A stretch of DNA of 64,000 bases from positions 62,001 through 126,000 of the forward strand of contig NZ_JAGSND010000009.1 of the NCBI RefSeq assembly GCF_018128545.1, given 5' to 3'. The notes below the pieces were generated by a model. It was not told the DNA's origin and made no database searches. It saw only the letters and a list, made by a program, of their open reading frames with translations. A program made the position numbers and the translations under genes. This DNA comes from Sinanaerobacter chloroacetimidivorans. GTDB taxonomy: Bacteria; Bacillota; Clostridia; Peptostreptococcales; Anaerovoracaceae. Positions 5,886 to 50,886 of this stretch are shown here, one piece after another; position 1 is the stretch's first letter; the number at the start of each line of letters is the position of its first letter.

Positions 5886-7250
<1,365 letters not shown>

Positions 7251-7716: not shown

Positions 7717-10700
7717 TTAGTCTTCTACGATTCTCAGCGGTGTAGCGGGGTCATAGACGGAGTTTATTTTACTCGCATAGGAGTCTTTTTCTTCGATATC
7801 CCGATCCGTTACGTAATGAACATCCAAAAGTCCGTCGGATTGATATCCGGTTTTCAGGAAGTTGATTTCCGATAAAGCCATACTCCATCCGGAGAGCCAG
7901 GTATCCAGCTCCTCTTTTTGCTTCTGGGTTCCGTTAAAATGAATGAGCAGATCGATATCGCTGTTCAGCCTTGCCGTACAGTTACAGGTGCTTCCGAACA
8001 GATAGATTCCTTTTACGCCGAAGCTCTTGCAATCCATTTTCGCCGCAATTTTTTCAGCCATGTAATGTCTCCATTTCCAGCCTTGCCCCTCATCCTGCTC
8101 CGTTTTATCCTCAGGTTCTTCAATAAAAGAGGAGGGTCGCTGCCCCGGCTTAGGGGAATGATCCAAATAGGCCACAGCTCTTTCAAGATCCGCATTCATC
8201 AAAATGTTCAATTCTTTTCGATAGTAATTCTCGCCGATATTGATCACCTTTATGACGTCATCGAGATCCGCATAGGCAGGGAGAATTTTTTCAAGTGCGT
8301 TTGTATTCTGCGTAAAAAAGCTTTTCTGAAACTGTATTCCGCTATTTTCCGGATATAAGGGGAGGTATTTGATATCAGCCTCAACCAGATCCTGAAAGAA
8401 ATGGGTTCCAAAGGAAAGCTCCGGCTGATGTTTTGATTTCTTTTGCGAAATCTCTATCAGCATGGCAGCATTGCTGATATCGGAATAGGTGACCTTGACT
8501 CCCAACTTGATGTCACCGCGGCTTCCCCATCGGCCGGGACCCATCAAAATAAAGCTTCTTCGATAGAGGATTCTGTTCAGTTCCCCAATGGCGTTTCCAA
8601 CTCGGACGAGATCCTCATGGCGTTCCAGATTGCCGTAGGCCTCCGGATCTACATAGACCACCGTTTTGATTCCGGTGACTTTGCCGTTGGAAATATATTT
8701 ATCGGCGGTAAAGATGGTGCTTTGCGGCGATATATTCGTCGGAATGGGAACGGGGAAGCTGCCCCTGCTTTTACTTTGGGGTCTGCACTGCAGCAGATAA
8801 AAGGTTTCACCATCACTGGCAAACTCGATATCAACCGGATAGCCCAGCTTTTCCTTCAATAAGGAAAGAATGGTCTGCATCTGTGAAATCATGCCCGTTC
8901 TGCTGATCAATCCGTCAAAAGTAACAATAAACTGATCATTTCTATAATCCACATCAAAAGTGTTGAGTTCCGATACGAAATCTTCCTTTAAAATGGATGC
9001 CGCATGATTCAGGAAGGGAATCTCCCTTCCGTATTCTCTGATCATTTCAGAGATCGGAACCGATACAAAGCGGTTGGTTTCCACATCAATGACGTCCATC
9101 ATCTGAGGAGAATATCTTCGAATTTCCTGTGGCACCTGATTTACCCGAAGCTTTGGCTGACCCGGAGAGATCAGCACGGGAAAATCATCTCCCACGCGGT
9201 CAACTGCTCGGGTTCCCAAACCCATCACCATACGCAGCAGGCCATCCTCTCTGTTGATTCTGGGAGACCATCTGAATTCGTTGTTGCTGAAGGCAACTCC
9301 CGCATATAAAGGGAAATAATAGGGTCCGATCCGTCTTCCCACAACTTCCTGTATCATAATACCCATCTGCTCCGCGCAATCCAGCAAATTCCGCTCCCTA
9401 CGGTATTGTATGGAGTCGGGGCTGAACATAGATGCGTAGATTTCCAAAATTCCGTCCACAAGACTTTGAAGACGTTCCTCTTTTGTACCGGTATTTGTCA
9501 GGAACAGGCTTTTATATTTCCCAGAAAAAGAGGAATTCTTCTGATCCTCCAGCAAGCTGGAGGAACGTATAATTAAAGGTTTATCCGTACATTGATCCAG
9601 AATTTGGCTCAATTCTGTCATAACGTAGGGAGACAAACGGGAATTTTTAATGGACTGAACAATTTTGGGGTAGCTGATCCTCACTTCAAAAATATCCCGG
9701 TATTTATGTTCGTTCAGCTCATCCAGATGGTTGTCGTGGAGGAGATTTTCCAGTTCGTCAGCGGAAATAAACCAAGTTTTTAACATTTTAATATTTTTAA
9801 AATCCGGATCTTGTCCCAGACAAGCCTGTACAATTTTATTTGCAAGAAAGAATCCTGCTGCTTTTCCGCCGACTCTTCCGGAACTTTTCGGTGAACAGAT
9901 CAGGGTACTCAGCAATTGGGAAAAGTCTTCCGTAGACAAATATCTTCTGGCATTCTCCATCAGTCTGGGCTCGTCGGTAAGAAATCTCCTCATCAATTCC
10001 ACAATAAGCCATCTCTTCGTTGTTCTGCTGGAATTTTCACTGGTACTCATGGCTTTCCCGTATTGCAGCAGCGCATGGGAGATATCCTTGACATCGGAAT
10101 CCTTTTTTCCAACCAGTTTAATTAACTCATAGGTTTTTCCCTGATAGATCCACAGACTGATCTCATCAAAAATCTGCGTATCGTCAAGGCAGGATTTGGC
10201 GGCACGGAATATGCCTTTGCTCAGACGGATGACATCGACGGCAGGAAGGCTGCCGTGAGGGAAGTTGATTTCTCCCAGATAATCCTGTTTGACCCAGTCC
10301 ATTTCATTCAATATGTCCTGAACCACATTCGGATGATCCTTTGCAAGAAGAGCAAGCATCTTCTCGCAAACGTGGAGCAGCATGGTGTGATCGGTTCGCT
10401 GAAGAAGGTTGATGATCGCCTTCCAGTTGCTTCTGGTAGCACTCTGGCTCTGAATTTCCTGCTGATGTACAAATTGAGCGATTTTATTGGCTACGGCTTT
10501 TAGAAGTTTTTCTTCCTGCACCAGGAAGGCGGTTTCTTCCTCGTTCTTTTCATAAGCTGCTTTTATGTATCCCCGAACCTTTTGGTTAACAACGATGGCC
10601 GATTGGATTTCATTTCCGTTGGATATGACCGGTTTGGCGGAATAAATCTCGTCATCAAAAAATATGGTCACGATGCAGTCATTCACATTGCAAAACCCTG

Positions 10701-10842
10701 AGGGCAGAACCTTGGAAACTTCCATTAAAATATCCGAGAGTGAGCTGTTGGTCAGAGCATCATCAACTAAATACAGGCATTCTAATTCTTTAGCCCGTTC
10801 TTTTAAAAAGGTTACTGAAAAATTTTGTGTATCGTCTATCAT
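7717..10842 (-). CDS. PPDK/PEP-synthase ATP-grasp-like protein fused to a nucleotidyltransferase
   Basis: This 1041-residue protein has a GAF-like N-terminus (about 10-130) and a helical region. Next comes a pyruvate-phosphate-dikinase N-terminal (ATP-grasp) domain with GRVGGKAAGFF, PLIIRSSSLLED and the closing YLLQCRPQ. A middle region of unknown type and a C-terminal nucleotidyltransferase fold (YLFGSTCNCTARLNSDIDLL, about 935-970, the GS-DxD metal motif) follow. The phosphohistidine swivel domain (GGxxSHAAIVAR type) and the PEP-binding barrel are absent, so it should not be called PEP synthase. It starts at ATG 10842 with GGAGG 7 bases upstream, 75 bp downstream of the second GDH. Function unknown; a signalling or regulatory role is inference. 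Confidence 0.8.
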   Translation of the reverse strand: MIDDTQNFSVTFLKERAKELECLYLVDDALTNSSLSDILMEVSKVLPSGFCNVNDCIVTIFFDDEIYSAKPVISNGNEIQSAIVVNQKVRGYIKAAYEKNEEETAFLVQEEKLLKAVANKIAQFVHQQEIQSQSATRSNWKAIINLLQRTDHTMLLHVCEKMLALLAKDHPNVVQDILNEMDWVKQDYLGEINFPHGSLPAVDVIRLSKGIFRAAKSCLDDTQIFDEISLWIYQGKTYELIKLVGKKDSDVKDISHALLQYGKAMSTSENSSRTTKRWLIVELMRRFLTDEPRLMENARRYLSTEDFSQLLSTLICSPKSSGRVGGKAAGFFLANKIVQACLGQDPDFKNIKMLKTWFISADELENLLHDNHLDELNEHKYRDIFEVRISYPKIVQSIKNSRLSPYVMTELSQILDQCTDKPLIIRSSSLLEDQKNSSFSGKYKSLFLTNTGTKEERLQSLVDGILEIYASMFSPDSIQYRRERNLLDCAEQMGIMIQEVVGRRIGPYYFPLYAGVAFSNNEFRWSPRINREDGLLRMVMGLGTRAVDRVGDDFPVLISPGQPKLRVNQVPQEIRRYSPQMMDVIDVETNRFVSVPISEMIREYGREIPFLNHAASILKEDFVSELNTFDVDYRNDQFIVTFDGLISRTGMISQMQTILSLLKEKLGYPVDIEFASDGETFYLLQCRPQSKSRGSFPVPIPTNISPQSTIFTADKYISNGKVTGIKTVVYVDPEAYGNLERHEDLVRVGNAIGELNRILYRRSFILMGPGRWGSRGDIKLGVKVTYSDISNAAMLIEISQKKSKHQPELSFGTHFFQDLVEADIKYLPLYPENSGIQFQKSFFTQNTNALEKILPAYADLDDVIKVINIGENYYRKELNILMNADLERAVAYLDHSPKPGQRPSSFIEEPEDKTEQDEGQGWKWRHYMAEKIAAKMDCKSFGVKGIYLFGSTCNCTARLNSDIDLLIHFNGTQKQKEELDTWLSGWSMALSEINFLKTGYQSDGLLDVHYVTDRDIEEKDSYASKINSVYDPATPLRIVED

Positions 10843-10917: not shown

Positions 10918-12204
10918 TTACACCCAACCCCGAAGCTTTACCGCTTCGGCCACGCGATTAATTGCAATGATGTATGCGGCATCCCGCATATATAAATCTT
11001 TTTCTTTTGCCAGACGATAGACAGCCTGGAATGCTGAGGTCATTTTTTCATCAAGCTTCTCCAGAACTTCCTCTTTAGGCCAGAAATAATTGGAGTTGCA
11101 TTGAACCTGTTCAAAGTAGCTGCAGGTAACTCCTCCTGCATTGGCCAGGAAATCGGGAACGAGAAAAATAGAACGTTTCTTGATCAATTCATCGCATTCC
11201 GGTGCGGTAGGACCGTTTGCACCTTCACAGATAACCTTTACATTTTTGCTGACTTTTTCAAATGTATCCGTTGTGATCTGGTTTTCAAGAGCACATGGAA
11301 GGAGAATATCCACATCCTGTGCGATCCATTCGCCGCCGTCCAGTAATTCACAGCCTAGTTCAACTGCTTTTTCCTTATTAATGGTACCGAAAGAATCCTT
11401 GATAGCAACCATCTTATCTATATCCAGTCCGTCTTTTTTTCGGAAAGTATAGGACTTTTGATCATGATTATCCCAGCTGGAGATGGCCACGATTTTGCCT
11501 CCCATGCTGGTATAAAGCCTGGATGCGTATTCCGCAACGTTGCCAAAGCCCTGAAGGCTGGCAGTGGTAGAGGAAACAGGAATATCCAGAGCCTTTAACG
11601 CTTCTCTCAGCGAGTAAATCACCCCATAGCCAGTTGCTTCCGTTCTGCCTAAAGATCCGCCGGAGCCAACCGGTTTTCCTGTAATCGTTCCGGGGTAGTG
11701 CCCCCCGAAAATAGTCTCGTATTCATCCAGCATCCATAACATATGCTGGCCGTTGGTCATGACATCAGGAGCCGGAACGTCAATTACCGGGCCGATGTTT
11801 TTTGCGATTTGTCTCACATATCCCCGACAGAGCCTTTCCTGTTCTCCTTTGGAAAGGTTATGAGGATCACAAATAATTCCGCCCTTGGCGCCACCCAGTG
11901 GAATATCTACCACAGAACATTTCCAGGTCATCCACATGGAAAGGGCTCTTATGGTATCCACTGTTTCCAGAGGGTGGAAACGGATCCCGCCCTTTGCCGG
12001 GCCTCGTGCAGCATTGTGCTGGATTCTGTAACCATGAAATATCTTAGTTGAGCCGTCATCCATTTTTACGGGAATAGTAAAATGAAATTCACGGCTTGGC
12101 TGACGTAACAGTTCCCTTACGGAAGGATCAAGATCAAGCACATCCGCTATTTGATCAAATTGTGATTGCGCTGCTGCGTAAGGATTGTAGCCTTGCTGAT
12201 TCAT
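10918..12204 (-). CDS. Glutamate dehydrogenase, second paralogue (428 aa)
   Basis: This is a member of the Glu/Leu/Phe/Val dehydrogenase family of the 420-430 residue RocG/GudB type: PLGGAKGGIICDP with the catalytic lysine, GPVIDVPAPDVMTNGQHM, and the Rossmann motif ASLQGFGNVAEY. It releases ammonia and 2-oxoglutarate from glutamate, normally with NAD in this subfamily, which suits a catabolic role. It differs clearly from the 444-residue enzyme at 5886. The start follows AGGAGG. Upstream is a strong sigma-A promoter with two near-palindromes at the expected start of transcription, suggesting repression. The PPDK-like gene lies 75 bp downstream. Confidence 0.93.
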   Translation of the reverse strand: MNQQGYNPYAAAQSQFDQIADVLDLDPSVRELLRQPSREFHFTIPVKMDDGSTKIFHGYRIQHNAARGPAKGGIRFHPLETVDTIRALSMWMTWKCSVVDIPLGGAKGGIICDPHNLSKGEQERLCRGYVRQIAKNIGPVIDVPAPDVMTNGQHMLWMLDEYETIFGGHYPGTITGKPVGSGGSLGRTEATGYGVIYSLREALKALDIPVSSTTASLQGFGNVAEYASRLYTSMGGKIVAISSWDNHDQKSYTFRKKDGLDIDKMVAIKDSFGTINKEKAVELGCELLDGGEWIAQDVDILLPCALENQITTDTFEKVSKNVKVICEGANGPTAPECDELIKKRSIFLVPDFLANAGGVTCSYFEQVQCNSNYFWPKEEVLEKLDEKMTSAFQAVYRLAKEKDLYMRDAAYIIAINRVAEAVKLRGWV

Positions 12205-14306: not shown

Positions 14307-15539
14307 ATGAAAGTAGTCGTATTGGGAGCAGGATTGCAGGGAATCGCAACTGCTTTGGATTTAGCCTGGAATGAAAACATGAAGGAGATTCTGCTGGCGG
14401 ATCTTAATTTGGAAAGAGCGGAATACGTTGCCGCCTTATGTAACAGGAAATATGGACATAAGGTAAAGGCAGTAAGCTGTGATGTTTCTGATTTTGCCGC
14501 TTTGGTCGAGTTGATTCGGGGTTATGATCTTGTAATCAATGAGGTAAATTATTATTTCAACTGCCATATCATGGATGCCTGTCTTGAAGCCGGCGTAAAT
14601 TATGTGGATATCGGAGGGCTTTATGTAGAGACCATTAAGCAGATGAAATACAAAGACCGATTTGAAAAAGCAGGCCTGCTTGCCATTATCGGAATCGGAG
14701 GGACTCCCGGTGTTACCAACGTCTGTGCAAGATGGGCTGCCGACCGTCTGGATACGGTAGAGGAAATCAATATCAGCTGCGGCTGTGATGATTGGTCCAA
14801 ATCAAAGAAAACCTTTGAAGTAACCTATGCCATTGAAACCATTATGGATGAGTTTTATATGAAGCCTATTCAGTACATAGACGGAAAGTATAAAGAGGTA
14901 GAGCCCAGGAGCGGGGGCGAGATCATCCAATATGCGAAACCAATCGGAGACCAGTACTCCTATTTCATCATGCATTCAGAAATAGGGTCTCTTCCGGAGG
15001 TATACAAGAATAAAGGAATCAAAAATTGCACCTTCCGTATCGGTTTCCCGGAAGCCATTAAAGAAAAACTAGAATTTCTCCATGGACTTGGATTCAGCAG
15101 GAAAGATTTCATTCCGGTAGGTGACTGCAAAATAAAACCTGTCAATGTATTAAAGAGACTGATGGATCTGCAGCCTGATGATCCCGAAGCCACGATCAAC
15201 GACTGTGATATTATTAAGACCGTTGTTACCGGAACAAAGGACGGAAGAAAGCTGGAATATGAACTGGAAGCAATCTGCCGTCCGGTAGAGGAGTGGCCTG
15301 AATTGCTGGGCGCACAGGTATATATCGGCGGTGCCCCGGCATGGGCGGCTGAAATGATCCGAAAAGGACAAATCAAAGGGCCCGGTGCATTCGCTCCGGA
15401 AGAATGCATTCCGCCGGAAGAGTTTTTTGCTGAAGCGGCAAAACGTGAAATTTATATAAAAGCAACTCAAAGGACATACCTTGGAACAGAGAATTGGGAA
15501 GCTGCCAGGAAAAAGGAACTGATCGAGCAGGGCAGATAA
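14307..15539 (+). CDS. Saccharopine/lysine-6-dehydrogenase-like oxidoreductase 1
   Basis: This 410-residue protein has an N-terminal Rossmann domain (VVVLGAGLQGIATALDLAW, residues 3-21). The family signature GVNYVDIGGLY and the loop IGIGGTPGVTNV follow, then a C-terminal catalytic/dimerisation region ending in a conserved QIKGPGAFAPEECIPPEEFF block. That tail closely parallels lysine 6-dehydrogenases (RGVYPPEQIVP). The family oxidises an amine or secondary amine next to a carboxylate with NAD(P). The substrate cannot be told by eye. Second gene of the sigma-54 operon; the next gene starts 18 bp downstream. Confidence 0.85.
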   Translation: MKVVVLGAGLQGIATALDLAWNENMKEILLADLNLERAEYVAALCNRKYGHKVKAVSCDVSDFAALVELIRGYDLVINEVNYYFNCHIMDACLEAGVNYVDIGGLYVETIKQMKYKDRFEKAGLLAIIGIGGTPGVTNVCARWAADRLDTVEEINISCGCDDWSKSKKTFEVTYAIETIMDEFYMKPIQYIDGKYKEVEPRSGGEIIQYAKPIGDQYSYFIMHSEIGSLPEVYKNKGIKNCTFRIGFPEAIKEKLEFLHGLGFSRKDFIPVGDCKIKPVNVLKRLMDLQPDDPEATINDCDIIKTVVTGTKDGRKLEYELEAICRPVEEWPELLGAQVYIGGAPAWAAEMIRKGQIKGPGAFAPEECIPPEEFFAEAAKREIYIKATQRTYLGTENWEAARKKELIEQGR

Positions 15540-15557
15540 TCATTGGGAGGAGAGCTT

Positions 15558-16784
15558 ATGAAAATCGTAATTTTAGGGGCCGGAATACAGGGAGGCATCG
15601 TTGCTTCTGATTTGTGTGATGCAGAATTGAGCCCGGGGCAAAGGGATCTTACTATTTGTGACTATCAAGCTCATAAAGCAAAAAACATCGGAGAGAAATT
15701 GGGAATCCAAGCCAGGCAATGTGATGCTGCGAATCATGAACAATTGGTCGACATCATTCGAGGCGCGGATATCGTGGTCAATTGCGTTCAGTATCATTGG
15801 AATGTCGGCATCATGAAAGCCTGCCTGGAGACAAGGTCTCATTATATTGATCTTGGCGGACTTTTCCATGTTACCAGAAAACAATTTGAACTTCATGATG
15901 ATTTCCTCCAGGCAGGTTTGCTTGCGGTTTTAGGGATGGGCAGCACTCCGGGCACTATGAATGTTATGGCAGGATATGCGGCAGGCCTTCTGGATACGGT
16001 AAGGGAAGCCCATGCCATCTGTGCCTGCGGAGATTTTACGAAAACCAATGCGGTAATCGGGATTCCCTATTCTCTGCAAACCGTTATGGAAGAACACACG
16101 CTGGATCCCTGGATACTGAGAAATGGGGAACTGGTTTCTGTACCGGCAGGAAGCGGGAAAGAGATGATCCATTTTTCAGAACCTATCGGACTGGCAGAAG
16201 CCGGGTATTGCATCCATTCTGAGCCGGCACAGTTTTATCGTTCGTTCAAAGAAAAAGGTATCAAAGAAGCAAGCTTTAAATTATCCCTGCCGGCATCTTT
16301 TGAAGAGAAAATCAAATTTCTTTCGGAAATTGGCTTCGGCAGTGAGGAAACAATACGGGTAGACGGTAATGAAATAAACCCTCTGAGGACCATGATTGCT
16401 GTGATCAATCGATACCTTGAACGGTATGATGATTCAGGGGACGGAGCCCTGAACGATTGCGATGTTCTCCGCATGGTAGTACAAGGCAAAAAAGATCAGA
16501 TGGAAAAAGAAATCGTTGTGGAATCCGTGATCCGGACAAGTGAGAAATGGGGATTCATGGCAGGAGCATTGGATACCGGCGTGCCCCCTTCCATAGTGGC
16601 GCAGATGATTGAAAAAGGGCAAATAACAGCAAGGGGAGTTTGCTCCCCTGAACAGTGTGTTCCTCCTATTCCCTATTTTAAAGAACTGGAAAAAAGAGAG
16701 ATGCCTGTTTATGTTCTGGAAAAAAGCCCGCTTTCCAGTGATGATTTTTCCTGCTTAAACCGTGTAGTTTCAAAACCGAAATAA
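15558..16784 (+). CDS. Saccharopine/lysine-6-dehydrogenase-like oxidoreductase 2
   Basis: This 408-residue paralogue of the preceding gene has the Rossmann motif IVILGAGIQGGIVASDL, then HYIDLGGLFHVTRKQ, LGMGSTPGTMNVMAGYAAG and the C-terminal ITARGVCSPEQCVPPIPYF. ATG 15558 is chosen because GGGAGGAG (15545-15552) is 6 bases upstream. An upstream TTG at 15543 has no ribosome site. The immediate tandem arrangement suggests either a heteromeric enzyme or two steps or two substrates of one pathway. A strong terminator follows, so the operon is transporter plus two dehydrogenases. Confidence 0.85.
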   Translation: MKIVILGAGIQGGIVASDLCDAELSPGQRDLTICDYQAHKAKNIGEKLGIQARQCDAANHEQLVDIIRGADIVVNCVQYHWNVGIMKACLETRSHYIDLGGLFHVTRKQFELHDDFLQAGLLAVLGMGSTPGTMNVMAGYAAGLLDTVREAHAICACGDFTKTNAVIGIPYSLQTVMEEHTLDPWILRNGELVSVPAGSGKEMIHFSEPIGLAEAGYCIHSEPAQFYRSFKEKGIKEASFKLSLPASFEEKIKFLSEIGFGSEETIRVDGNEINPLRTMIAVINRYLERYDDSGDGALNDCDVLRMVVQGKKDQMEKEIVVESVIRTSEKWGFMAGALDTGVPPSIVAQMIEKGQITARGVCSPEQCVPPIPYFKELEKREMPVYVLEKSPLSSDDFSCLNRVVSKPK

Positions 16785-16838
16785 GGATTGGGTTTCCTGA
16801 ATTGTTTCTTGTTACAAAGTCCTGATTATGTGATTATA

Positions 16839-16873
16839 AGAGGAATATTCCTTTGGAATACTCCTCTTTTTCT
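16839..16873 (+). terminator. Terminator of the sigma-54 operon
   Basis: AGAGGA-A-TATTCC (16839-16851), loop TTT, GGAATA-C-TCCTCT (16855-16867) forms a 12-bp stem with one mismatch, followed by TTTTCTTG. It separates the operon from its regulator gene. Confidence 0.9.
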
Positions 16874-16941
16874 TGTAAAGAATCTCTAAAAAATGCATAA
16901 TAGAGGTAACTTATTCTCTTCTTAAGATAGGGGTGAAGCTA

Positions 16942-18369
16942 TTGGTCAACTTTAACGGATTGTTTCAAAATCATTATGAAGAATTGTCCGAAATTTTAAA
17001 CTGTATCAAGGTAGGTATTTACATTACCGATGGTAAAGGAAATACGATCCTGCTGAACGATGAATCTTGTAAAACAGGAGGTTTGACAAGAGATGAAGTG
17101 GTGGGAAAAAACATGCGGGAGCTGGAAGAGATGGGGTTTATCAAGGAATCCTGTGTTCTTCGAACGTTGAACAGCGGTGCGGAAGAAAATATGATCCAAA
17201 ACTTAGGTGATGGGGGAGAGATCTTTGTTACTGGTGTACCTTGCTGCCGGAATCATAAAATAGAATATGTGGTCTGCACGGAAAGAGACATCACTGAAAT
17301 GTCTATTTTAAAGGATCTGCTGAAAGAAAAGGAAGAACGAGAGGAAAAGTATGAAAAAGAAATATTATATCTAAGAAATAAAAGCCTGGAAATGAGCGGA
17401 AATATCATAACCGAGGATCAAAAAATGAAGTACATCGTAGAGAATGCCTTAAGAGCCGCAAGGCATGATACTACGATTCTGCTGACAGGGGAATCCGGCA
17501 CCGGAAAAGAGGTTTTCGCAAATTTGATCTATAAAAACAGCAGCAGAGTCGGGAAACCATTTATTAAGATCAATTGTGCCGCCATTCCGGAAAATCTATT
17601 GGAATCTGAATTCTTCGGCTATGACAAGGGGGCTTTTACAGGGGCCGACAAAGATGGGAAAATGGGAATTTTTGAATTGGCTGACGGCGGAACGCTGTTT
17701 CTGGATGAAATCGGTGAGCTGCCTACCCATCTTCAATCAAAGCTGCTGCGCTGCTTACAGGAAAAGGAAATCATGCGAATCGGCGGTCAAAAATCCATAC
17801 CGGTGGACGTAAGAATTATTGCTGCGACCAATGCCAATTTAAAAAATGCCATTGAAAAGGGAACCTTCCGGGAGGACCTTTATTACCGTCTGAACATCTT
17901 ACCCATAGAACTGATTCCGCTGCGTGAGAGAAAAGGCGATATTGAAAAGCTGACCTATCATTTTATGGACAAATATACGAAAAAATATATTGTTGAAAAA
18001 AAAATTACTAATGAAGCGATTCAAGCTTTAAAAAAATATCACTGGCCGGGAAATGTAAGGGAGCTTGAAAATGTAATTGAAAGAATCATTATTTCCTTTG
18101 ATGGTATTGAAATTACTAAATTTCAGGTCAACAGGCTGCTTTACGGAGACAGTGACAATCCGAAGAAGATAAAAATCTTGGAAGGAGCTACCTATAAGCA
18201 GCTGATGGAAGAATATGAACGGCAGATCCTGAAGGAAATGATGAAAAAATATAAAAAAGCTTCTCTGATATCTAAGAAATTGGATATCAACAAATCCACG
18301 CTGTCGAGAAGACTGGCCAAATACAATATAAGAGATGAAGAAGAGGTTTCGAAATTGAAACAAATATAG
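16942..18369 (+). CDS. PAS-type sigma-54-dependent transcriptional activator
   Basis: About 475 residues. An N-terminal PAS sensor domain (about 10-120, KVGIYITDGKGNTILLNDES) is followed by a charged coiled linker. Next comes an AAA+ enhancer-binding domain with Walker A GESGTGKE near 183, the sigma-54-contacting GAFTGA near 230 and Walker B GGTLFLDEIGELP. A C-terminal Fis-type helix-turn-helix (ASLISKKLDINKSTLSRRLAK, near 440-460) ends the protein. TTG 16942 follows AGGGGTG by 6 bases; GTG 16933 is the alternative. It lies between two units with -24/-12 promoters and is their obvious activator. The PAS domain likely senses the inducing metabolite. That is inference. Confidence 0.92.
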   Translation: MVNFNGLFQNHYEELSEILNCIKVGIYITDGKGNTILLNDESCKTGGLTRDEVVGKNMRELEEMGFIKESCVLRTLNSGAEENMIQNLGDGGEIFVTGVPCCRNHKIEYVVCTERDITEMSILKDLLKEKEEREEKYEKEILYLRNKSLEMSGNIITEDQKMKYIVENALRAARHDTTILLTGESGTGKEVFANLIYKNSSRVGKPFIKINCAAIPENLLESEFFGYDKGAFTGADKDGKMGIFELADGGTLFLDEIGELPTHLQSKLLRCLQEKEIMRIGGQKSIPVDVRIIAATNANLKNAIEKGTFREDLYYRLNILPIELIPLRERKGDIEKLTYHFMDKYTKKYIVEKKITNEAIQALKKYHWPGNVRELENVIERIIISFDGIEITKFQVNRLLYGDSDNPKKIKILEGATYKQLMEEYERQILKEMMKKYKKASLISKKLDINKSTLSRRLAKYNIRDEEEVSKLKQI

Positions 18370-18384
18370 TTTCAATTTTAAAAT
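18369..18384. promoter_or_regulatory. Weak candidate enhancer site overlapping the activator stop codon
   Basis: GTTTCAATTTTAAAAT shares the GTTTCAA half-site of the motif upstream of the transporter operon but has a poor second half. It is about 200 bp upstream of the -24/-12 promoter at 18586. Confidence 0.4.
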
Positions 18385-18488
18385 CTGAAGAAATAGATAA
18401 CCTCAAGAAAAATCAAGACTTTAAAGGCAAACTGTTCCTCATAATTTTCTATATAATAGGTCTTTCATAAGAGTTTTATCGATCGCTA

Positions 18489-18504
18489 GTTTCAAAATTG
18501 AAAT
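18489..18504. promoter_or_regulatory. Candidate enhancer site for the third dehydrogenase
   Basis: GTTTCAAAATTGAAAT is a near-perfect palindrome matching GTTTCA-N4-TGAAAC except for the last base. It lies about 82 bp upstream of the -24/-12 promoter, close to the 73 bp seen for UAS3 at the other operon. The 18370-18667 gap holds this site, a terminator and the promoter. Confidence 0.65.
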
Positions 18505-18534
18505 TTTGCCAATATCACAATAAGAAAAGTATGG

Positions 18535-18575
18535 AAGCCTGCGTTATCACTGTTGATAATGCAGGCTTTTCTTTA
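18535..18575 (+). terminator. Terminator of the sigma-54 activator gene
   Basis: AAGCCTGCGTTATCA (18535-18549), loop CTGT, TGATAATGCAGGCTT (18554-18568) is a 15-bp stem with one G-T pair, followed by TTCTTTACTTTTTT. Confidence 0.93.
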
Positions 18576-18585
18576 CTTTTTTAGG

Positions 18586-18602
18586 TTGGCAAAATATTTG
18601 CA
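18586..18602 (+). promoter_or_regulatory. Sigma-54 (-24/-12) promoter of the third dehydrogenase
   Basis: TTGGCAAAATATTTGCA has GG at 18588-18589 and GC at 18600-18601 with exactly 10 bases between, and the TTGCA element. It is placed just after the activator's terminator, giving a separate transcript beginning near 18613. Confidence 0.9.
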
Positions 18603-18667
18603 ATAAAAAATTATGATGCGCTGATAGATTTTTCCGAAAAACAAAAAATGAAAAAGGAGAGACGGAT

Positions 18668-19888
18668 ATGAATAAGATCAAAGTTTTAATTATGGGAGCC
18701 GGAGGACAGGGGGGACCATGCGCTTCTATCTTATCGAGGTTTGAAAACATTGAACAGATAAGACTGGTTGATATTGATGAAAAGACAGCTGAAAAGGCAG
18801 CATCACACATAGGCAGTACGAAGATTACCACCGGAAAGGTGAATGCTACCGATTCCGAGGATGTAGCCAGGGCTGCACAGGGAGTGGATATTGTCGTTGA
18901 TGTGGTTATGCCCTGGATGGCGACCTATGTGATGAGAGGTGCGCTCAAGGCAGGTGCCAATTATATCAATACGGCCTTTGACACACCGTTTTGGGATGAG
19001 CTTTTGACCGGAAAAGAGCTTACGATGGATCAAGAATTTAAAGAGGCGGGACTTACCGCGCTTCTTGGATGCGGTATGGCACCGGGCTTTACCAATGTCA
19101 TAGCCAAATATTATGGTAACAAACTGGACCGAGTTGAAGAAATCCATATGAGAGTAGGCAAAAAGAAGCTTGCAAAAGAGAAGTATGAGGATCTCATCAC
19201 ACCTTGGAATCCAGGATGGTCGCCGAAACAGGCATTACTTGACTGCTCCAATCCGACCTATGCACTGGAAAAGGGAGAATTCGTCCTATATTCGCCATTC
19301 AGCGGCATCGAGGAATGTGAGTTTCCTGAACCTGTTGGTATCTTGCCGGTAACACATCATTCCCATGAGGAAATTTACAGCATGCCAAGAACTTTTCCCG
19401 ATTTGGTGGAATGCAATTTCAAATATTTTATCATGCCGCCTTCCGCAATGCTATATGCTTTGGGTTTAACTTCCCAGGAAGAGGTTGAGGTCAACGGTGT
19501 CAAGGTGAGACCTTTGGATCTTGTGGTTTCCAGAATTCCGAACCCCGGCAACGCCTTTTTTCACGAAAATGCGGAAGCATTGGCAGAGGCGGATAAAACG
19601 GCTTTCTTTGAAATGATCATTGAAGTTGCCGGAAAAAAAGACGGAGAAAGGGTAAAATATAAGATTAATTGTCCGAAGATGAATGCACCGGGACCGGAAT
19701 TGCTGAAGCTTTACGGTACTGCCAGTGTGAATGTAGCGCTTCCGCTGTCCATAGGAGCCGTTCAGATTCTTGAAAAACCCCAGCCTGGCGTGATCTTTGC
19801 GGATCAGCTGGATCCCGGCAGATTTCTGGAGCTGATGATGGGTACAGGATATCCTTACAAATGGAAAGAAGAACTGATAAAGATTTAA
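18668..19888 (+). CDS. Saccharopine/lysine-6-dehydrogenase-like oxidoreductase 3
   Basis: This 406-residue family member has the Rossmann motif VLIMGAGGQGGPCASIL (residues 6-22), ANYINTAFDTPFWDE, LGCGMAPGFTNVIAKYYG and a C-terminal QILEKPQPGVIFADQLDPGRF. It is more diverged from the two tandem paralogues than they are from each other, notably in the C-terminal PPEQ-type block. The ATG follows AAAGGAGAG. It forms a single-gene unit behind its own -24/-12 promoter, in the same regulon. The substrate is unknown; saccharopine, lysine or another opine-like amine is possible. Confidence 0.85.
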   Translation: MNKIKVLIMGAGGQGGPCASILSRFENIEQIRLVDIDEKTAEKAASHIGSTKITTGKVNATDSEDVARAAQGVDIVVDVVMPWMATYVMRGALKAGANYINTAFDTPFWDELLTGKELTMDQEFKEAGLTALLGCGMAPGFTNVIAKYYGNKLDRVEEIHMRVGKKKLAKEKYEDLITPWNPGWSPKQALLDCSNPTYALEKGEFVLYSPFSGIEECEFPEPVGILPVTHHSHEEIYSMPRTFPDLVECNFKYFIMPPSAMLYALGLTSQEEVEVNGVKVRPLDLVVSRIPNPGNAFFHENAEALAEADKTAFFEMIIEVAGKKDGERVKYKINCPKMNAPGPELLKLYGTASVNVALPLSIGAVQILEKPQPGVIFADQLDPGRFLELMMGTGYPYKWKEELIKI

Positions 19889-20047: not shown

Positions 20048-23000
20048 ATGCAGAAAAAAGTTGTTGTACAGAATCTGTATAAAGAGCTGACAGATCGTCT
20101 CACAGACAGACCATTTTTGAAATCAATGAAATTATCAAAGAAAGCCATGCTTGAATTTCTTCAGGCTGATGACTGGAAAGAAAATATCAGTCAAGTGCTT
20201 CAGCATGATATCGTTTCCTGCAAGGAAGTTCTGCTTGTCTGTGAGAAAACTTTGAATATGCTTGCCGTACCGCCGAAGACGGGCTGGCTGACTTATATTT
20301 ATCATTCTATTGCAAGCAGGATGTTCCCGGAAAATCCCGGTACCAAAATAATTCCTGCCTGTGAGCCAGGGCGCCTGTTTTACCTGGAAGTGCTCAGCAC
20401 CTTCCTGAATTATGAGAAGAGGAATATCTCATTCAGTCCCTTTCTTCATATAGAATTTTTAAAGGAAGAAGAACTGAAAAATGCAGCTGTAGGTACGGAA
20501 TATCAAAGGCTGATGAGGATCTTCAGAGAAGACTATTTTTATGAATTCATGAGAATCGGCACTGAGATTACCAGACATAAAACGTTGGCTCACATCTCAG
20601 GTGTCCATTATATATCTATGCATGTAGCAAAACAGCTTCATCTTGCAGAGGTACCCATTGACCTTGCGTTGGTATCCGGCGCTGCCGTAGGCCATGATAT
20701 TGGAAAATATGGATGTAAGCCCAGTGAAGCCAAAAGAATTCCGTATCTTCACTATTTCTATACGGACCGCTATTTTAAAAAGAGAAATATGCCGGTTATC
20801 GGTCACATCGCAACCAATCATTCTACCTGGGATTTGGAGCTGGAAAATCTGTCTGTTGAGTCCCTGGTATTGATTTATGCCGATTTTCGTGTCAAAAGCA
20901 AAAAAGATAAGGAAGGAAAAGAAGTCGTGCACTTCTTTAGCCTGGATGATTCCTTTGACGTAATTCTATCTAAGCTGGATAATGTTGATGAAGCAAAAAA
21001 AGATCGGTATATGCGGGTTTATGCCAAACTCAAGGACTTTGAGGACTACATGGAAAACCTTGGGATCAATACGGATTTGACTTCTTTGCAGATGAAGATA
21101 CCGGACAAAAAGGAAGCATCCTTGCTGCGCGCCCGGGAAGTGGTGCAGACTTTAAAACATCTGGCTATTGAAAATAATATTGCTCTTATGCATAAACTCA
21201 ACAGTGAGACCGCCTTTGCCAACATTCTGGAAGCTGCCCGAAGTGAAAAAAACTGGAAAAATATCAGAGCTTACATTAATATTTTTGAAGAATATTTTAC
21301 GTATATGACCCAGAAGCAGAAAATAATGACGTTGAATTTTCTCTATGAATTGCTGATGCACCGTGAAGGCGATATCAGAAGGCAGGCTGCGGATCTTATC
21401 GGGAATATCATCGTTCATTACGATGTGGAATATCGGAAAGAAATTCCTGAGGGTGTCACGATGGAGCTGGATGAGGTCACCAGCCTGGACTTATGGAGAA
21501 AATATCTGGAAGCCATTATTCTGCCAGATCATAAGGTTACGGACCAGCATAAAAGATGGATCGGATATGCCTTGAAGCTGGTGGTTGGATCTGTATTTGA
21601 ACGGTGTAAAAAAGAGGACAACTGTCATTATTTAAATGAGTTGTTATCGTATTACGATGATGAGGTGAGGGATGAATCCACTTCCTTTATTCTGCTGGAC
21701 TCCATGCTTGTTCTGCCGCTGCCCTTATGCGGGCAGGAAGATATTACACGGCTTCTTTCCTTCGTACAACGCCTTGCTGACAAGGATTCACCGGAAGTGC
21801 AAATTGCCGTATTGAGATTTCTGCAGTATATTTCGGAGAATCTGGATGATAAATCCTGTTGTATACCGGCAGCAGAAGCAATTCTGAGTAGGATCCGAGA
21901 TGACAGCTCCGTTGCTATTGCATATTTGAAGTACTCTATCGGGGAGCATCTTAATCTTCGGAATGAGGCGGAAAGAAAAAGAGAAGAATCTCGCTTCTCT
22001 GAATCTGAAGTTATCTCGGACATTTTCCTTGAAAATTTAAAGGTTGCGACACCCTGGGTGATCAAATCAGTCAATATTGAACTCCTTTTGGATCAGATTG
22101 CCAAAGGCCGGAACACGCAAGTGCTTCATGTGGCTACCCATCTTTCTAATCTGATCAAAGTAAGTTCAACGGTAGCGGTCAGGCATAGTGCCGGTAAAGC
22201 CCTGCTTTCTATTGCACCTGGACTTTCCCTGGATCAGATCAACGAGGTAGTGATCGAGTTGACCAAGGGCTTGGAAATCGGAGAATACGAATTTTCAAAA
22301 TATATTCCGGAATACTTGGGCGTTCTGGCCCTGTATCTGCATCCGAACGAATTGGATGAGTCTATCTATGATTTGAAAAAGCTTTTGGAAAGTAATAATG
22401 ACAGAGTGTGTTCCGTAACGCTTCATACCCTGGGGGTTTTAATTCAGCATTATCCCGTTTACAGGGAAAGATTTCAGGAAACCTATCAAATCTATGAGGA
22501 GCGCAGACAGCAAATTTTGGGCATGATATTAAAAGGGTTTTCCAATTACCACGATGCCATCAGTCAGGAAGCCTTTTTAGTCATCGGAAAGTATATCTTT
22601 GGATCCAGGCATCTTACCCTTCACGATAAATATGAAGTGTTTCAACATATTTACAAGAAAATGCTGACTCTTTTTGCAGATCAGAAAGTAACCCAGCTTT
22701 CTTTCTATAATCGTGCGGCATCCTTGAACCATATTTACCGTTTCATAGCCGATTACACGTTCCATTTCGGAGAGATAAGCGTGAATGAACCGGAAAAAGT
22801 GGCCTTTTTCCCAGGAACCTTTGATCCCTTTGCTTTAAGCCATAAGGGTATCGTAAAGGCTATCAAAGAGCTGGGGTTTGAGGTTTATCTGGCTCTTGAT
22901 GAATTTTCCTGGTCAAAAAAGACACAGCCGAGAATGATTCGCAGAAAGATCATCAACATGTCGGTGGCCGGGGAAGATGATGTTTATCTGTTCCCGGATG

Positions 23001-24934
23001 ATATTCCTGTAAATATTGCGAATCCCGCAGATTTACGATTATTAAAATCAATTTTTACCAACCGGGAAATTTATATTGTTGTAGGCAGCGATGTGGTTAG
23101 GGAAGCCTCCTCTTATTTGTCTGAACCGGAGGAAGACTCGATCCATCATTTTAACCATCTGGTATTTAAACGCGCTTCCCTTGCAGAGGATGGTGATTCC
23201 GATCAGGAGGAGCGTTGGAACGACGAGAAAACGGAGGCCTATGGAAATATTACCGGAGAAATTATCGAGCTTTCTCTGCCGGTTTATCTGGAGGACATCA
23301 GTTCGACCAGAATCCGGGAGAATATTGATTATAACAGAGATATTTCGAATTTGATCGATCCTCTGGCTCAAAATTATATTTATGACAACAGTTTATATTT
23401 ACGGGAGCCGCAATATAAACACACCATGGATGGGAATAAAATTTACTTTGAAATTATTAAAAAATTTGATAAATCATTGATTGACGAATTATCGGAAACT
23501 TTATTTAAAAATAGACCGAACAAAAATCAAATCAGAGAATATCTTCAGAGGGATAACACCAGTGGAGTCATCCTGAGAGAGGCAGGAAAGAACCATAAGG
23601 TGGCGGGGATTGCAACCTTCCATCAGACCGGTATGTCAGAGCTTTACCATGAGTTCGGAAATATTGAAATTGCTTCTTATGTAAGAAGAAAAGCATCGGG
23701 CAATCTGGTAGTCCTTTCCGGTATGCTGATCTCTTCCGAAACTTCAGTCAAGAATCCGGAACAGCTGACTCTTGCGGAAACTTTGGCCTATTGTCTGAAG
23801 AATGATTTTACCTATGCGATCTATCACGACCGCCTGGGCACCTTGAATGAAAAGGCAGTCCTGCGGCTGAAAAGGCAAGGATTCTTCCGCGTCCGGGGAA
23901 GCAGTGATCTCGATCCGATTTTTGCGGTTGATATGAAATCACCCATTACCGTATTTCAGGACATCGAAACCATCATAAAGGAACCCTTCCATCAGTGTGA
24001 AAGAGTCAGAAAGGTTGTGGAAGAGTCTCATGAAAGATTTCAATTGGCCCTGACCAAACTGTATCCTGGAAATTTAATTCTTTCCTTTGATGCTGAAGTG
24101 ATGCATCATCGGATTGCGGAACTCATTACCACGGAAAATCAGGTACCGGCAGAACCCCAAAAGATCAGAATCCTTGGACGATATATGTGCGTGCCTTTCG
24201 GTAAAATACTGAGGGGAATGGCAGTTCCCAATACGGTAACCAAATCACTGCACACCGAAAAGATCTTTGAACCTGAAATCGATGGGTTTCAGATCCGGGA
24301 ATTTCCCTATTATTCACCTTTAGAGAATCAGATTAAAACCATAAAGTCCTTCCGCCGTCCCGTTTTGCTGGTAGATGACCTGCTTCACAAGGGTTACAGG
24401 ATGAAAGAACTGGATCCTTTATTAAAAAAAGAAGAGGTGGATGTCCATAAAATCATCGTGGGCATATTATCGGGAAGGGGCAAAGACCTTATGACCATTC
24501 AGGGGAGAGAGGTGGAATGTGTGTACTTTATCCCCAATCTGCTGGCTTGGTTTGATGAATCCAGCATGTATCCGTTCATCGGCGGAGACGGCATAAGAAG
24601 GAAAGAAAATGTTAACACGAGCCTGATCTCTTCTGTGAATTTAATACTGCCATATGCGGCACCAAACTTTTTGGCAGATGCTCCGAAAGCAGCGTTTTAT
24701 CATTATTCCATGACCTGCCTGGAAAATGCCAAAGCCATATTGTCGGTGCTGGAAGAGGAATATCAATCTATTTTTGAGAGGAACCTTACCTTAAACCGGT
24801 TGAGTGAAGCAATTGTATCACCGAGATGTCCGGATAAGGGTGTTTACATGAGCTATGATCAAAATCTTCCTCCTTCCATATACCTGGCTAATGATATCGA
24901 GAAGCTGAAACGATTAAGAAATATAATTCTATAG
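20048..24934 (+). CDS. Giant multidomain protein: HD, helical repeats, cytidylyltransferase-like, acetyltransferase-like, phosphoribosyltransferase-like
   Basis: 1628 residues, ATG behind GAGGTGG. Visible parts in order: an HD phosphohydrolase-like domain (about 175-300; VSGAAVGHDIGKYG with H216-D217, then HIATNHSTWDLE and a later Asp) and helical HEAT-like repeats (about 400-900). Next is a nucleotidyltransferase of the NadD/CoaD type (FFPGTFDPFALSHKG near 920 and ISSTRIRENI near 1084). A GNAT-like region (about 1130-1310) and a phosphoribosyltransferase-like signature RPVLLVDDLLHKGYR near 1437 complete it. The usual HxGH of the nucleotidyltransferase is LSHKG here. The combination suggests nucleotide or NAD-related metabolism, but no function can be assigned. 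Two small-molecule oxidoreductase-type genes follow on the same strand. Confidence 0.85.
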   Translation: MQKKVVVQNLYKELTDRLTDRPFLKSMKLSKKAMLEFLQADDWKENISQVLQHDIVSCKEVLLVCEKTLNMLAVPPKTGWLTYIYHSIASRMFPENPGTKIIPACEPGRLFYLEVLSTFLNYEKRNISFSPFLHIEFLKEEELKNAAVGTEYQRLMRIFREDYFYEFMRIGTEITRHKTLAHISGVHYISMHVAKQLHLAEVPIDLALVSGAAVGHDIGKYGCKPSEAKRIPYLHYFYTDRYFKKRNMPVIGHIATNHSTWDLELENLSVESLVLIYADFRVKSKKDKEGKEVVHFFSLDDSFDVILSKLDNVDEAKKDRYMRVYAKLKDFEDYMENLGINTDLTSLQMKIPDKKEASLLRAREVVQTLKHLAIENNIALMHKLNSETAFANILEAARSEKNWKNIRAYINIFEEYFTYMTQKQKIMTLNFLYELLMHREGDIRRQAADLIGNIIVHYDVEYRKEIPEGVTMELDEVTSLDLWRKYLEAIILPDHKVTDQHKRWIGYALKLVVGSVFERCKKEDNCHYLNELLSYYDDEVRDESTSFILLDSMLVLPLPLCGQEDITRLLSFVQRLADKDSPEVQIAVLRFLQYISENLDDKSCCIPAAEAILSRIRDDSSVAIAYLKYSIGEHLNLRNEAERKREESRFSESEVISDIFLENLKVATPWVIKSVNIELLLDQIAKGRNTQVLHVATHLSNLIKVSSTVAVRHSAGKALLSIAPGLSLDQINEVVIELTKGLEIGEYEFSKYIPEYLGVLALYLHPNELDESIYDLKKLLESNNDRVCSVTLHTLGVLIQHYPVYRERFQETYQIYEERRQQILGMILKGFSNYHDAISQEAFLVIGKYIFGSRHLTLHDKYEVFQHIYKKMLTLFADQKVTQLSFYNRAASLNHIYRFIADYTFHFGEISVNEPEKVAFFPGTFDPFALSHKGIVKAIKELGFEVYLALDEFSWSKKTQPRMIRRKIINMSVAGEDDVYLFPDDIPVNIANPADLRLLKSIFTNREIYIVVGSDVVREASSYLSEPEEDSIHHFNHLVFKRASLAEDGDSDQEERWNDEKTEAYGNITGEIIELSLPVYLEDISSTRIRENIDYNRDISNLIDPLAQNYIYDNSLYLREPQYKHTMDGNKIYFEIIKKFDKSLIDELSETLFKNRPNKNQIREYLQRDNTSGVILREAGKNHKVAGIATFHQTGMSELYHEFGNIEIASYVRRKASGNLVVLSGMLISSETSVKNPEQLTLAETLAYCLKNDFTYAIYHDRLGTLNEKAVLRLKRQGFFRVRGSSDLDPIFAVDMKSPITVFQDIETIIKEPFHQCERVRKVVEESHERFQLALTKLYPGNLILSFDAEVMHHRIAELITTENQVPAEPQKIRILGRYMCVPFGKILRGMAVPNTVTKSLHTEKIFEPEIDGFQIREFPYYSPLENQIKTIKSFRRPVLLVDDLLHKGYRMKELDPLLKKEEVDVHKIIVGILSGRGKDLMTIQGREVECVYFIPNLLAWFDESSMYPFIGGDGIRRKENVNTSLISSVNLILPYAAPNFLADAPKAAFYHYSMTCLENAKAILSVLEEEYQSIFERNLTLNRLSEAIVSPRCPDKGVYMSYDQNLPPSIYLANDIEKLKRLRNIIL

Positions 24935-25008: not shown

Positions 25009-25995
25009 ATGTATGTTTTAGACGATCTGATAAAGGGTAAATCAGAGGTAGCAAGTAAAGAGCCCTTGTTTGAAATCAATAAGAAAAAAAGAGTCAACCT
25101 TTTGGGACTTGGCGATGTGGGAGGCACCCTTCTGACCGGGCTGAAGCTCCTGGGAGGGGATACGATTTCTTCCATAGGGGTCTATAACGGAAATCAAAAT
25201 GTTGCGAAACGTTATGAATATGAAATGAATCAAACCGCATATCCCTGGGATTATGACCGGCTGCCTGAAATTGAAATCATTGGAAAGGAGCAGCTGTTCG
25301 AATGCGACGTCTTTATATTCTGCGCCTCCAAGTCTGTTCCTGCAGTGGGGGATGAGGTATCCGATGTAAGAATGGTTCAGTTTGAGGCCAATCGGAATAT
25401 TATAAAGGAATATGCCGTAATAGCGAGGAATAAAAAATTCAAAGGCTTATTTGCGGTGGTTTCCGACCCGGTGGATCCTCTTTGCAGGGAAGCGTTTCTG
25501 GAAAGCAATAAAAATGAACAGGGAATTTTCGACTGGAATGGCCTGAAAGCGGAACAGATACAAGGCTACGGACTTGGTGTTATGAACAGCAGAGCTGCCT
25601 ATTATGCGAAAAGAGAGGACCGTTTTACTTCCTTCTTAAAGGAAGGAAGAGCTTTTGGACCTCATGGTCAGGATCTTGTTATAGCCAACAGTATCGAAAA
25701 TTATGACGATGCCTTATCGAGAGAATTAACAGCACTTGCTGTTAACGCAAATATGAAAACCAGAGAGATTGGATTTAAGCCATACATTGCACCGGCTTTA
25801 TCATCAGGGGCAATCTCGCTGCTGCTCACCATGAGAGGGGAATGGCATTACAGTTCCAATTCCATTGGAGGGATTTATCTGGGCGCTAAAAATAGGATGA
25901 CGGAAACCGGAGTTGAAATCGAAAGGATTCCACTGCCTGAGAAGTTATTCAAAAGAATCGAGCATGCCTATCGTAATCTGGAACAAATCAAATGA
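25009..25995 (+). CDS. Lactate/malate-dehydrogenase-like Rossmann protein
   Basis: This 328-residue protein has an NAD-binding glycine motif GLGDVGG at residues 33-39, preceded by a short N-terminal extension. The next strand/loop FIFCASKSVPAVGDE resembles the coenzyme-binding domain of lactate/malate dehydrogenases. I do not see the canonical catalytic Asp-Arg-His set of true LDH/MDH enzymes, so the reaction is uncertain. It begins 75 bp after the giant protein and ends 21 bp before the next gene, so these three are likely one operon. Confidence 0.7.
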   Translation: MYVLDDLIKGKSEVASKEPLFEINKKKRVNLLGLGDVGGTLLTGLKLLGGDTISSIGVYNGNQNVAKRYEYEMNQTAYPWDYDRLPEIEIIGKEQLFECDVFIFCASKSVPAVGDEVSDVRMVQFEANRNIIKEYAVIARNKKFKGLFAVVSDPVDPLCREAFLESNKNEQGIFDWNGLKAEQIQGYGLGVMNSRAAYYAKREDRFTSFLKEGRAFGPHGQDLVIANSIENYDDALSRELTALAVNANMKTREIGFKPYIAPALSSGAISLLLTMRGEWHYSSNSIGGIYLGAKNRMTETGVEIERIPLPEKLFKRIEHAYRNLEQIK

Positions 25996-26016: not shown

Positions 26017-27078
26017 GTGGCTGATATCATACTCATAAGGCCCCATTGCAGAGAAAAGAGCAAGACAAAACGTCTGTCGGCTATTCTTGAATCGAGCCTG
26101 GCGGGCTATACTTATGATACCATAACGACCGTCGAGGAATTTGAAGAGCTGAAAAATAAAAAACTGCTGTTCGCAATATCCCTTGGAGAGTCGGGTATCA
26201 ATCTGGAGCTCTATGGAATTTTAAAGAAGATCCGGCTGGACAGAAGCTGCTTCGAAGGCTCCGTAGGCGGATTTATTGTGGACGGCAACAGCGAGCTGTA
26301 CACAAAATCTATTGCAAGAGAGCTGGCTTTCAGTGCAAACCTTGCAGGCTGTACCTTTCCGGGAAAGCCGCTGGTTGAAGGGACTCGTTCCTTAAATAAT
26401 TTTAATGTTGTTGCAAGAAAATTGGATACGGACAATCTCCAGGCTTATATGCATTCGGGGCATGCTTTGGTGGACAGCATTATGAATTTTAATCCTCCAA
26501 GACATAAAAAGCCCAAAATACTGGTGCTCCATGCCAGTAATTATCAGAAATCCAACACCATCAATCTTTGGCATATGGTACATGACCATTTGGGGGACTG
26601 TGAGGTGACGGAAGTATCTCTTCGTAACGGAGCCGTTGTTGACTGTATCGGCTGTCCCTATAAGACCTGCAAGCACTTCGGAACAACCGGGAACTGTGTT
26701 TACGGAGGCGTTATCGTGGAGCAGGTCTACCCGGCTATTATGGATTGTGATGCACTGGTTATGCTCTGTCCGAATTACAATGATGCCATCAGTGCCAATT
26801 TGTCAGCTTTTATAAACCGGTTGACGGCACTGCTGCGAATGACAAAGTTTTATGACAAGTACCTTTTCAGCATTATTGTTTCAGGCTACAGCGGAAGCGA
26901 TATCGTTGCGCAGCAGCTGATCAGCGGCTTGAACATGAATAAAACTTTTATTCTTCCCGGCAGGTTTTCTATGCTGGAAACTGCTAATAATGCCGGAAGC
27001 ATTTACCATGTGGATGGAATTCAGGATCGTGCCTCAGCTTTTGCAAATAATATTTTAAGTTATATCGGAGAGGTTTAA
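26017..27078 (+). CDS. NAD(P)H-dependent FMN-reductase/flavodoxin-like protein
   Basis: 353 residues. GTG start at 26017, 6 bases after AGGGAGGTGA. The first 160 residues are of unrecognised type. From about 165 a flavodoxin-like fold begins: KPKILVLHASNYQKSNTINL, then a Cys-rich VDCIGCPYKTCKHFG of the kind seen in NADPH-dependent FMN reductases with CxxC-type loops, and MLCPNYNDAISANLSAFINR. Such proteins reduce flavins, quinones or nitro compounds. Third gene of the giant-protein cluster. A small GGCTT/AAGCC hairpin with TTTTTC follows at about 27087-27106. Confidence 0.75.
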   Translation: MADIILIRPHCREKSKTKRLSAILESSLAGYTYDTITTVEEFEELKNKKLLFAISLGESGINLELYGILKKIRLDRSCFEGSVGGFIVDGNSELYTKSIARELAFSANLAGCTFPGKPLVEGTRSLNNFNVVARKLDTDNLQAYMHSGHALVDSIMNFNPPRHKKPKILVLHASNYQKSNTINLWHMVHDHLGDCEVTEVSLRNGAVVDCIGCPYKTCKHFGTTGNCVYGGVIVEQVYPAIMDCDALVMLCPNYNDAISANLSAFINRLTALLRMTKFYDKYLFSIIVSGYSGSDIVAQQLISGLNMNKTFILPGRFSMLETANNAGSIYHVDGIQDRASAFANNILSYIGEV

Positions 27079-50861: not shown

Positions 50862-50886
50862 CGCCAAAAGCAAGGAGGAAAAAAAG

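Follow-up and report, generated by a model that had tools for sequence, protein, structure and literature searches.

We found that the 64,000-nucleotide stretch of Sinanaerobacter chloroacetimidivorans DNA analyzed here (the window) encodes a 1628-residue protein in which an HD metal-hydrolase domain, a HEAT-type scaffold, a NadD-like nucleotidyltransferase, a GNAT fold, and a phosphoribosyltransferase (PRT)-like domain are joined in one chain. Its gene heads a three-gene operon, followed by genes for an LDH-like dehydrogenase and an FMN_red-type flavoprotein, and is linked to genes of glutamate and ammonium metabolism. Based on conserved motifs and on analogy with a known fusion protein, we propose that the nucleotidyltransferase and HD domains may act on a single NAD-like dinucleotide, the one forming and the other cleaving it, in a three-gene pathway tied to glutamate/ammonium metabolism, a reading that we consider plausible though still somewhat short of probable. 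The precedent is the NadD-YqeK fusion of JCVI-Syn3A (JCVISYN3A_0380, minimal mycoplasma genome), whose HD domain was proposed to remove faulty products of NadD, a form of proofreading in NAD synthesis (PMC9426524). An earlier sequence-only reading had suggested that the HD and nucleotidyltransferase domains could act on one nucleotide, making and degrading it, or could serve in the repair or salvage of NAD or a nucleotide, which is compatible with the evidence below; that reading missed the two co-occurring redox partners and the glutamate-gene neighborhood.

The open reading frame is uninterrupted and has 44 near-complete orthologues (window copy included) that align collinearly over nearly the full length at 41-63% identity, which shows that it is a real gene and not a chance frame. 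All 44 keep the same domain order, as follows:

20048-24934, + strand: open reading frame of the five-domain protein, ATG start, 1628 residues, no internal stop
20048-20464, + strand: N-terminal all-helical segment (residues 1-139), all helix in the AF2 model and poorly conserved
20465-21082, + strand: HD metal-hydrolase domain (residues 140-345), from invariant residues, Pfam HD, and NF045665
21083-22762, + strand: HEAT/ARM-like alpha-solenoid scaffold (residues 346-905), from the HEAT model and HEAT-type Foldseek matches
22790-23413, + strand: NadD-like HUP nucleotidyltransferase (residues 915-1122), from hhalign, TIGR00482, and Foldseek
23435-23962, + strand: GNAT-fold domain (residues 1130-1305), from Foldseek matches to GCN5/Nat
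24035-24697, + strand: type I PRT-like domain (residues 1330-1550), from the APRT model, Pribosyltran, Foldseek, and hhalign
24698-24931, + strand: conserved helical C-terminal tail (residues 1551-1628), helices in the model

Since family HMMs run on the single sequence found only the cytidylyltransferase-like domain and one HEAT unit, relatives were required to see the other domains; across the 44 members, CTP_transf_like matched all (best value 1.4e-9) and HEAT matched 34. AlphaFold (AF2) models were made as two halves, with pLDDT of 89 for residues 1-905 and 85 for the other half. Together, family models, AlphaFold with Foldseek, and the relatives bear out all five folds named in the sequence-only reading, and its motifs were found at or close to the positions it gave: the HD pair exactly at 216-217, GTFDPF at 923-928 rather than 920, SSTRIR at 1085-1090 where STRIR had been placed at 1084, and VLLVDDLLHKGYR at 1439-1451 rather than 1437. 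Residues H216, D217, G923, D926, H932, S1085, S1086, and R1090 are invariant in 44/44. By mean pairwise identity, the HD (0.66 over residues 165-345), nucleotidyltransferase (0.64), and PRT (0.59) domains are the best-conserved parts, residues 1546-1628 reach 0.56, the GNAT fold, at 0.31, ranks lowest among the enzyme-type domains, and residues 1-160 stand at about 0.30.

The nucleotidyltransferase domain showed a HUP fold with GTFDP..[HT]xGH and ISSTxIR by Foldseek, hhalign, and motif columns, and its motifs across the family are FFPGTFDPF[ST]xxH, DEFSWSK, GxD, Y1023, and ISSTxIR. Aligned by hhalign to clostridial NadD (the host's own copy plus 13 others), the whole domain matched end to end (probability 99.3, E 3e-20), and Foldseek matched it to NadD structures in the PDB with target-normalized TM scores of about 0.67-0.76. 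The NadD model TIGR00482 hit the window protein at E 1.7e-8 with 34.7 bits, below its curated cut-off of 112.45. Tyr1023, invariant in 44/44, occupies the aligned position of the base-stacking Trp of NadD, which, like its NMNAT1 equivalent, stacks on the pyridine (nicotinate) ring. The window copy carries Ala929 (22832-22834) at the first position of its [ST]xxH / [HT]xGH-type motif, a site that is Ser or Thr in 43/44 relatives, and this nucleotidyltransferase may be weakened as a result. Since ordinary nadD and yqeK genes are encoded elsewhere in the genome, we rejected the housekeeping NadD/YqeK identity; together with the replacement of the nicotinate-stacking Trp by Tyr, their presence makes plain NAD synthesis an unlikely role for the protein.

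In the HD domain, residues H182, H216, D217, H235, H253, H258, D279, and R281 are invariant in 44/44. Mononuclear HD domains carry H..HD..D, while the dinuclear YqeK type has two more His between HD and D (PMC8177086); the extra invariant His here (H235/H253, H258) fit the dinuclear H..HD..H..H..D pattern, with alignment to YqeK beyond the HD pair made by eye. Pfam HD matched 16/44 members (8e-5), the HD part of NCBIfam NF045665 matched 44/44 (2.2e-8), the YqeK model matched none of the 44, and a PDB sequence search with the HD profile alone was weak (best E 0.11). We rejected identity with true YqeK, and since hhalign to 15 YqeK sequences reached only E 0.01, no better than a dGTPase-type control, we call the domain a hydrolase of unassigned subfamily.

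The PRT-like domain carries the motifs NTVTK, VDDLLHKGxR, and YPFIGGD. The fold was recognized by Foldseek PRT matches and by the adenine-PRT model, which matched 33/44 members (8.8e-6), and Pribosyltran matched 9/44 (2e-4); hhalign to APRT placed the PRPP motif in register over 54 columns. Against a viral library, Foldseek returned HPRT (probability 0.91) and a PRT-domain protein (probability 0.99), both outside E<=0.001, and when the PRT profile alone was searched against PDB sequences, the best match was a weak one to PRPP synthase (E 0.26). Measured against the PRPP motif DD..[STAVD][STAR][GAC]x[STAR], the acidic pair, the Gly, and the last residue are kept, while H1447 (His in 43/44) and K1448 deviate. 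With HKGxR instead of TGxT as its phosphate loop, the domain may bind but not catalyze. In the window's own genome, and in most sampled relatives of its family, a search at E 1e-15 gave no match to adenine phosphoribosyltransferase. The GNAT-fold domain matched GCN5-type PDB structures by Foldseek with target-normalized TM scores of 0.63-0.69, so the acetyltransferase-like fold proposed earlier stands; however, the acetyl-CoA loop Q/RxxGxG/A is absent (consensus QLLLTE, glycines lost), and the domain is therefore probably not an acetyltransferase. Overall, the catalytic residues of the HD and nucleotidyltransferase domains are nearly all invariant, and the PRT phosphate loop is altered.

The two genes that follow encode redox proteins:

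25009-25995, + strand: partner 1, LDH/MDH-superfamily dehydrogenase-like protein (Ldh_1_N)
26017-27078, + strand: partner 2, FMN_red flavoprotein (PF03358, 6e-20) with an N-terminal extension

Partner 1 has invariant GxGDVG, SDPVD, and GPHG, with an NAD-binding domain and a catalytic His, and dehydrogenase activity is predicted; 3/5 members scanned passed the Ldh_1_N cut-off, with the window copy below it. Partner 2 has four invariant Cys in the arrangement CxxC-x4-C-x8-C. The order of the large gene and its two partners is kept in about 40 loci. In a sample of 66 genomes from many families, which are phylogenetically non-independent, both partners were found in 32/33 genomes with the large protein (the sole miss being a 1.3 Mb assembly) and in 0/33 without it; two pairs of entries may each be one genome (G706 and G776 gave identical matches), so the positives may be 31/32. 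Three genomes carry the partner pair on another contig, and two more have the large gene separated from the pair by a split glutamate synthase and a divergent ammonium transporter. Pairwise distances of the large protein correlated with those of the partners at 0.86-0.87, as expected under co-inheritance.

With these redox partners, which are expected users of NAD, the system could serve salvage or repair of NAD or its damaged forms: the PRT domain would make a mononucleotide starting from a base, the nucleotidyltransferase would complete NAD or an NAD-like product, the HD domain would remove faulty product, and the partners would reduce or oxidize damaged pyridine nucleotides. The best family match of the nucleotidyltransferase is indeed an NaMN adenylyltransferase, and the NadD-YqeK precedent is about NAD (PMC9426524). 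We nevertheless regard this explanation as unlikely, given the ordinary NadD and YqeK in the genome, the Tyr that replaces the nicotinate-stacking Trp in every member, and loci in which other NAD genes do not recur. Type I PRTs are also not known as the fold that normally makes NMN or NaMN.

A scan of GTDB species genomes gave 49 loci with the large protein, spread over many clostridial lineages that include Anaerovorax odorimutans (63% identity), Clostridium aminobutyricum, C. symbiosum, Fournierella, and Anaerotruncus, with further carriers in Lachnospiraceae, Oscillospiraceae, and Peptococcaceae and, added later, Acetoanaerobium noterae. An even sample of Clostridia had it in 31/391 species (about 8%, ~1 in 12), while a phylum-level sample gave strong matches in 8/398 genomes and only weak, NadD-like matches in two more. 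Complete copies have open frames of about 1570-1690 residues. Searches for stand-alone HD or PRT relatives (245 genomes each) yielded none that was convincing, with one marginal 47-residue HD match, and the architecture is never split: the protein occurs whole or not at all. No family model in the libraries searched is specific to it, and we found no description of the five-domain architecture in the open-access literature searched. A phage or mobile origin was rejected, as there was no match among 50,697 phage records and the sole "plasmid" match was a 2.6 Mb Acetoanaerobium record resembling a chromosome; a defense system was also rejected, with zero PADLOC matches for the three operon proteins. 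Two copies, L049:9986-14829 (several frames) and L043:10001-15138 (one frameshift), are pseudogenes or assembly errors. Genome G155 carries two copies of the gene (L077 and L078), which lie on opposite strands some 35-40 kb from each other; at one of them the partner pair is missing, and the next gene resembles, by eye, a DUF362/LarA-type protein. The assembly of the window is listed with 8.1% contamination, and the operon is common to many other genomes.

Glutamate dehydrogenase (GDH) genes lie within 10 kb of the large gene in 18/50 loci (776 kb of flank examined). Since genomes mostly carry one to three PF00208 genes, well under one GDH-adjacent locus would be expected by chance. Presence of GDH was discarded as a discriminating trait, and only its adjacency is informative, because 61/66 genomes carry GDH with or without the system. 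The window has two such genes upstream:

10918-12204, - strand: glutamate dehydrogenase family gene, BLAST homologue of GDH genes, PF00208 at the corresponding genome position
5886-7220, - strand: second glutamate dehydrogenase family gene, clustering with GDH of other loci, PF00208 at the corresponding genome position

The arrangement varies by lineage: GDH lies upstream, either divergent at a distance of 300-700 bp or co-directional at 50 bp, or it lies downstream. In the downstream type, genes for a histidine kinase and a YcbB-type response regulator come before it, as does, in several loci, one for a sodium/glutamate symporter. Loci of the large gene also contain genes for GltS, glutamate synthase, YcbB-type response regulators, and an ammonium transporter. 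Other neighbors were noted as well. Between the two GDH genes of the window (7717-10842, - strand) lies a gene for a 1041-residue protein that combines a PPDK_N ATP-grasp domain with a Pol-beta nucleotidyltransferase at its C terminus, with a homologue at the same place in L006. Three saccharopine-dehydrogenase-like paralogues (14307-19888) surround a PrdR-like sigma-54 activator (16933-18369), and a fourth gene of similar appearance lies at 50854-52233; the set has the look of a cluster for amino-acid catabolism. A rubrerythrin gene is found upstream in opposite orientation, usually with a Fur/PerR-like regulator (by eye), in L016, L020, L024, L025, L027, L035, L039, and L048.

Neighboring GDH could reflect only regulation or shared growth conditions, and genome linkage cannot separate cofactor synthesis from regulation. 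The protein might be a regulator resembling GlnD, with its nucleotidyltransferase adding a nucleotide to a protein (GDH, a glutamate transporter, or one of the operon partners), its HD domain removing that nucleotide, and its PRT and GNAT-fold domains sensing nitrogen or redox metabolites. The two activities on one scaffold, the two co-occurring partner proteins, and the linkage to GDH, GltS, glutamate synthase, the ammonium transporter, and the YcbB-type two-component system would all fit. However, the nucleotidyltransferase has the HUP/NadD and not the Pol-beta fold, with small-molecule NadD motifs kept and the base-stacking position still aromatic, and a family-model search of the large protein gave no ACT or NTP_transf_2 match, which leaves this explanation improbable as well.

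The domains could also be mainly non-catalytic, with the HD, nucleotidyltransferase, GNAT, and PRT folds merely binding nucleotides on a scaffold or sensor. The degenerate GNAT loop, the altered PRPP loop, Ala929 in the window copy, and the large HEAT part point in this direction, but we think such a protein quite improbable, as all HD ligands and nearly all nucleotidyltransferase catalytic residues are invariant in 44 sequences of 41-63% identity. Finally, a role in a Ter-type stress pathway producing a nucleoside-like metabolite, suggested by locus L031 (14913-24701), where the gene adjoins C-C_Bond_Lyase, YceG_bac, TelA, and three TerD-like genes of a tellurite-resistance cluster, is highly improbable given that this is one locus among 49, that the co-occurring partners are other proteins, and that Pfam and PADLOC searches yielded no Ter-type or defense family.

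Returning to synthesis and cleavage of one dinucleotide, the NadD-like domain would transfer the NMP group of an NTP onto an aromatic-base nucleotide, giving an NAD-like dinucleotide, and the HD domain, as a metal phosphohydrolase, would cleave the same type of diphosphate bond for proofreading or product turnover. The PRT domain would supply, or recognize and sense, the ribose-phosphate precursor. Their co-occurrence with the large protein points to the two redox proteins as using or finishing the product, so the LDH-like protein and the flavoprotein may be product users or carry out redox steps in its formation, and the three-gene system would serve glutamate/ammonium metabolism in fermenting Clostridia. 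The domains, the conserved catalytic residues, the fixed architecture, the co-occurrence of the partners, and the glutamate-gene linkage were observed, and from them we infer catalysis, the product, the direction of the pathway, the role of each partner, and the point where glutamate metabolism enters. In favor of this proposal we counted the high conservation of the HD, nucleotidyltransferase, and PRT domains, the invariant HD ligands and nucleotidyltransferase motifs, the end-to-end NadD alignment with Y1023 exactly at the base-stacking Trp, the unsplit architecture, the partner co-occurrence, the GDH linkage, and the NadD-YqeK precedent; against it we counted the HKGxR loop, Ala929, an HD domain no nearer to YqeK than to the dGTPase-type control, and the ambiguity of genome linkage and GDH adjacency described above.

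Taken further, and more tentatively, the three genes could encode a pathway not described before, devoted to building, checking, and using its own NAD-like dinucleotide, a cofactor or signal in the glutamate/ammonium redox metabolism of fermenting Clostridia, which one five-domain protein would both synthesize and cleave. Of the Clostridia species sampled, about one in twelve has this ~1,600-residue family whole, and cultured members among them include gut and amino-acid-fermenting species. The near-perfect co-occurrence of its redox partners, together with the linkage to glutamate genes, gives a concrete pathway hypothesis that can be tested in species amenable to culture. Should the product prove to be a new dinucleotide, the central nitrogen metabolism of gut anaerobes would gain a further cofactor or signal.

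Among known systems, GlnD also combines a nucleotidyltransferase and an HD domain in one protein tied to glutamate/ammonium metabolism, but it has the Pol-beta fold and ACT domains, neither of which was found here. Type I PRTs (APRT, HPRT, XPRT) share the VDDLL..G.R strand-loop-helix PRPP motif and the next alpha/beta units, a similarity confined to ~55 residues around that motif, whereas the HKGxR loop and the invariant NTVTK and YPFIGGD belong to the large protein. The closest HD domain by family model is that of the DVU_1551 family NTP transferase-HD proteins (NF045665), which is likewise fused to a nucleotidyltransferase domain, although only the HD part matches, at a score far below the family cut-off. 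NadD/NMNAT (TIGR00482) shares the fold, GTFDP..H, GxD, ISSTxIR, and a C-terminal YI..LY, and the large protein differs in its Tyr for the stacking Trp, its unique DEFSWSK, and its ~1600-residue context. Lastly, the NadD-YqeK fusion (JCVISYN3A_0380; PMC9426524) similarly unites a NadD-fold adenylyltransferase and an HD phosphohydrolase in one chain, but the protein described here places the HD domain first, with ~570 residues of HEAT scaffold between the two, has an HD domain that is not YqeK by profile, adds GNAT and PRT domains, and occurs with redox partners beside the housekeeping NadD and YqeK.
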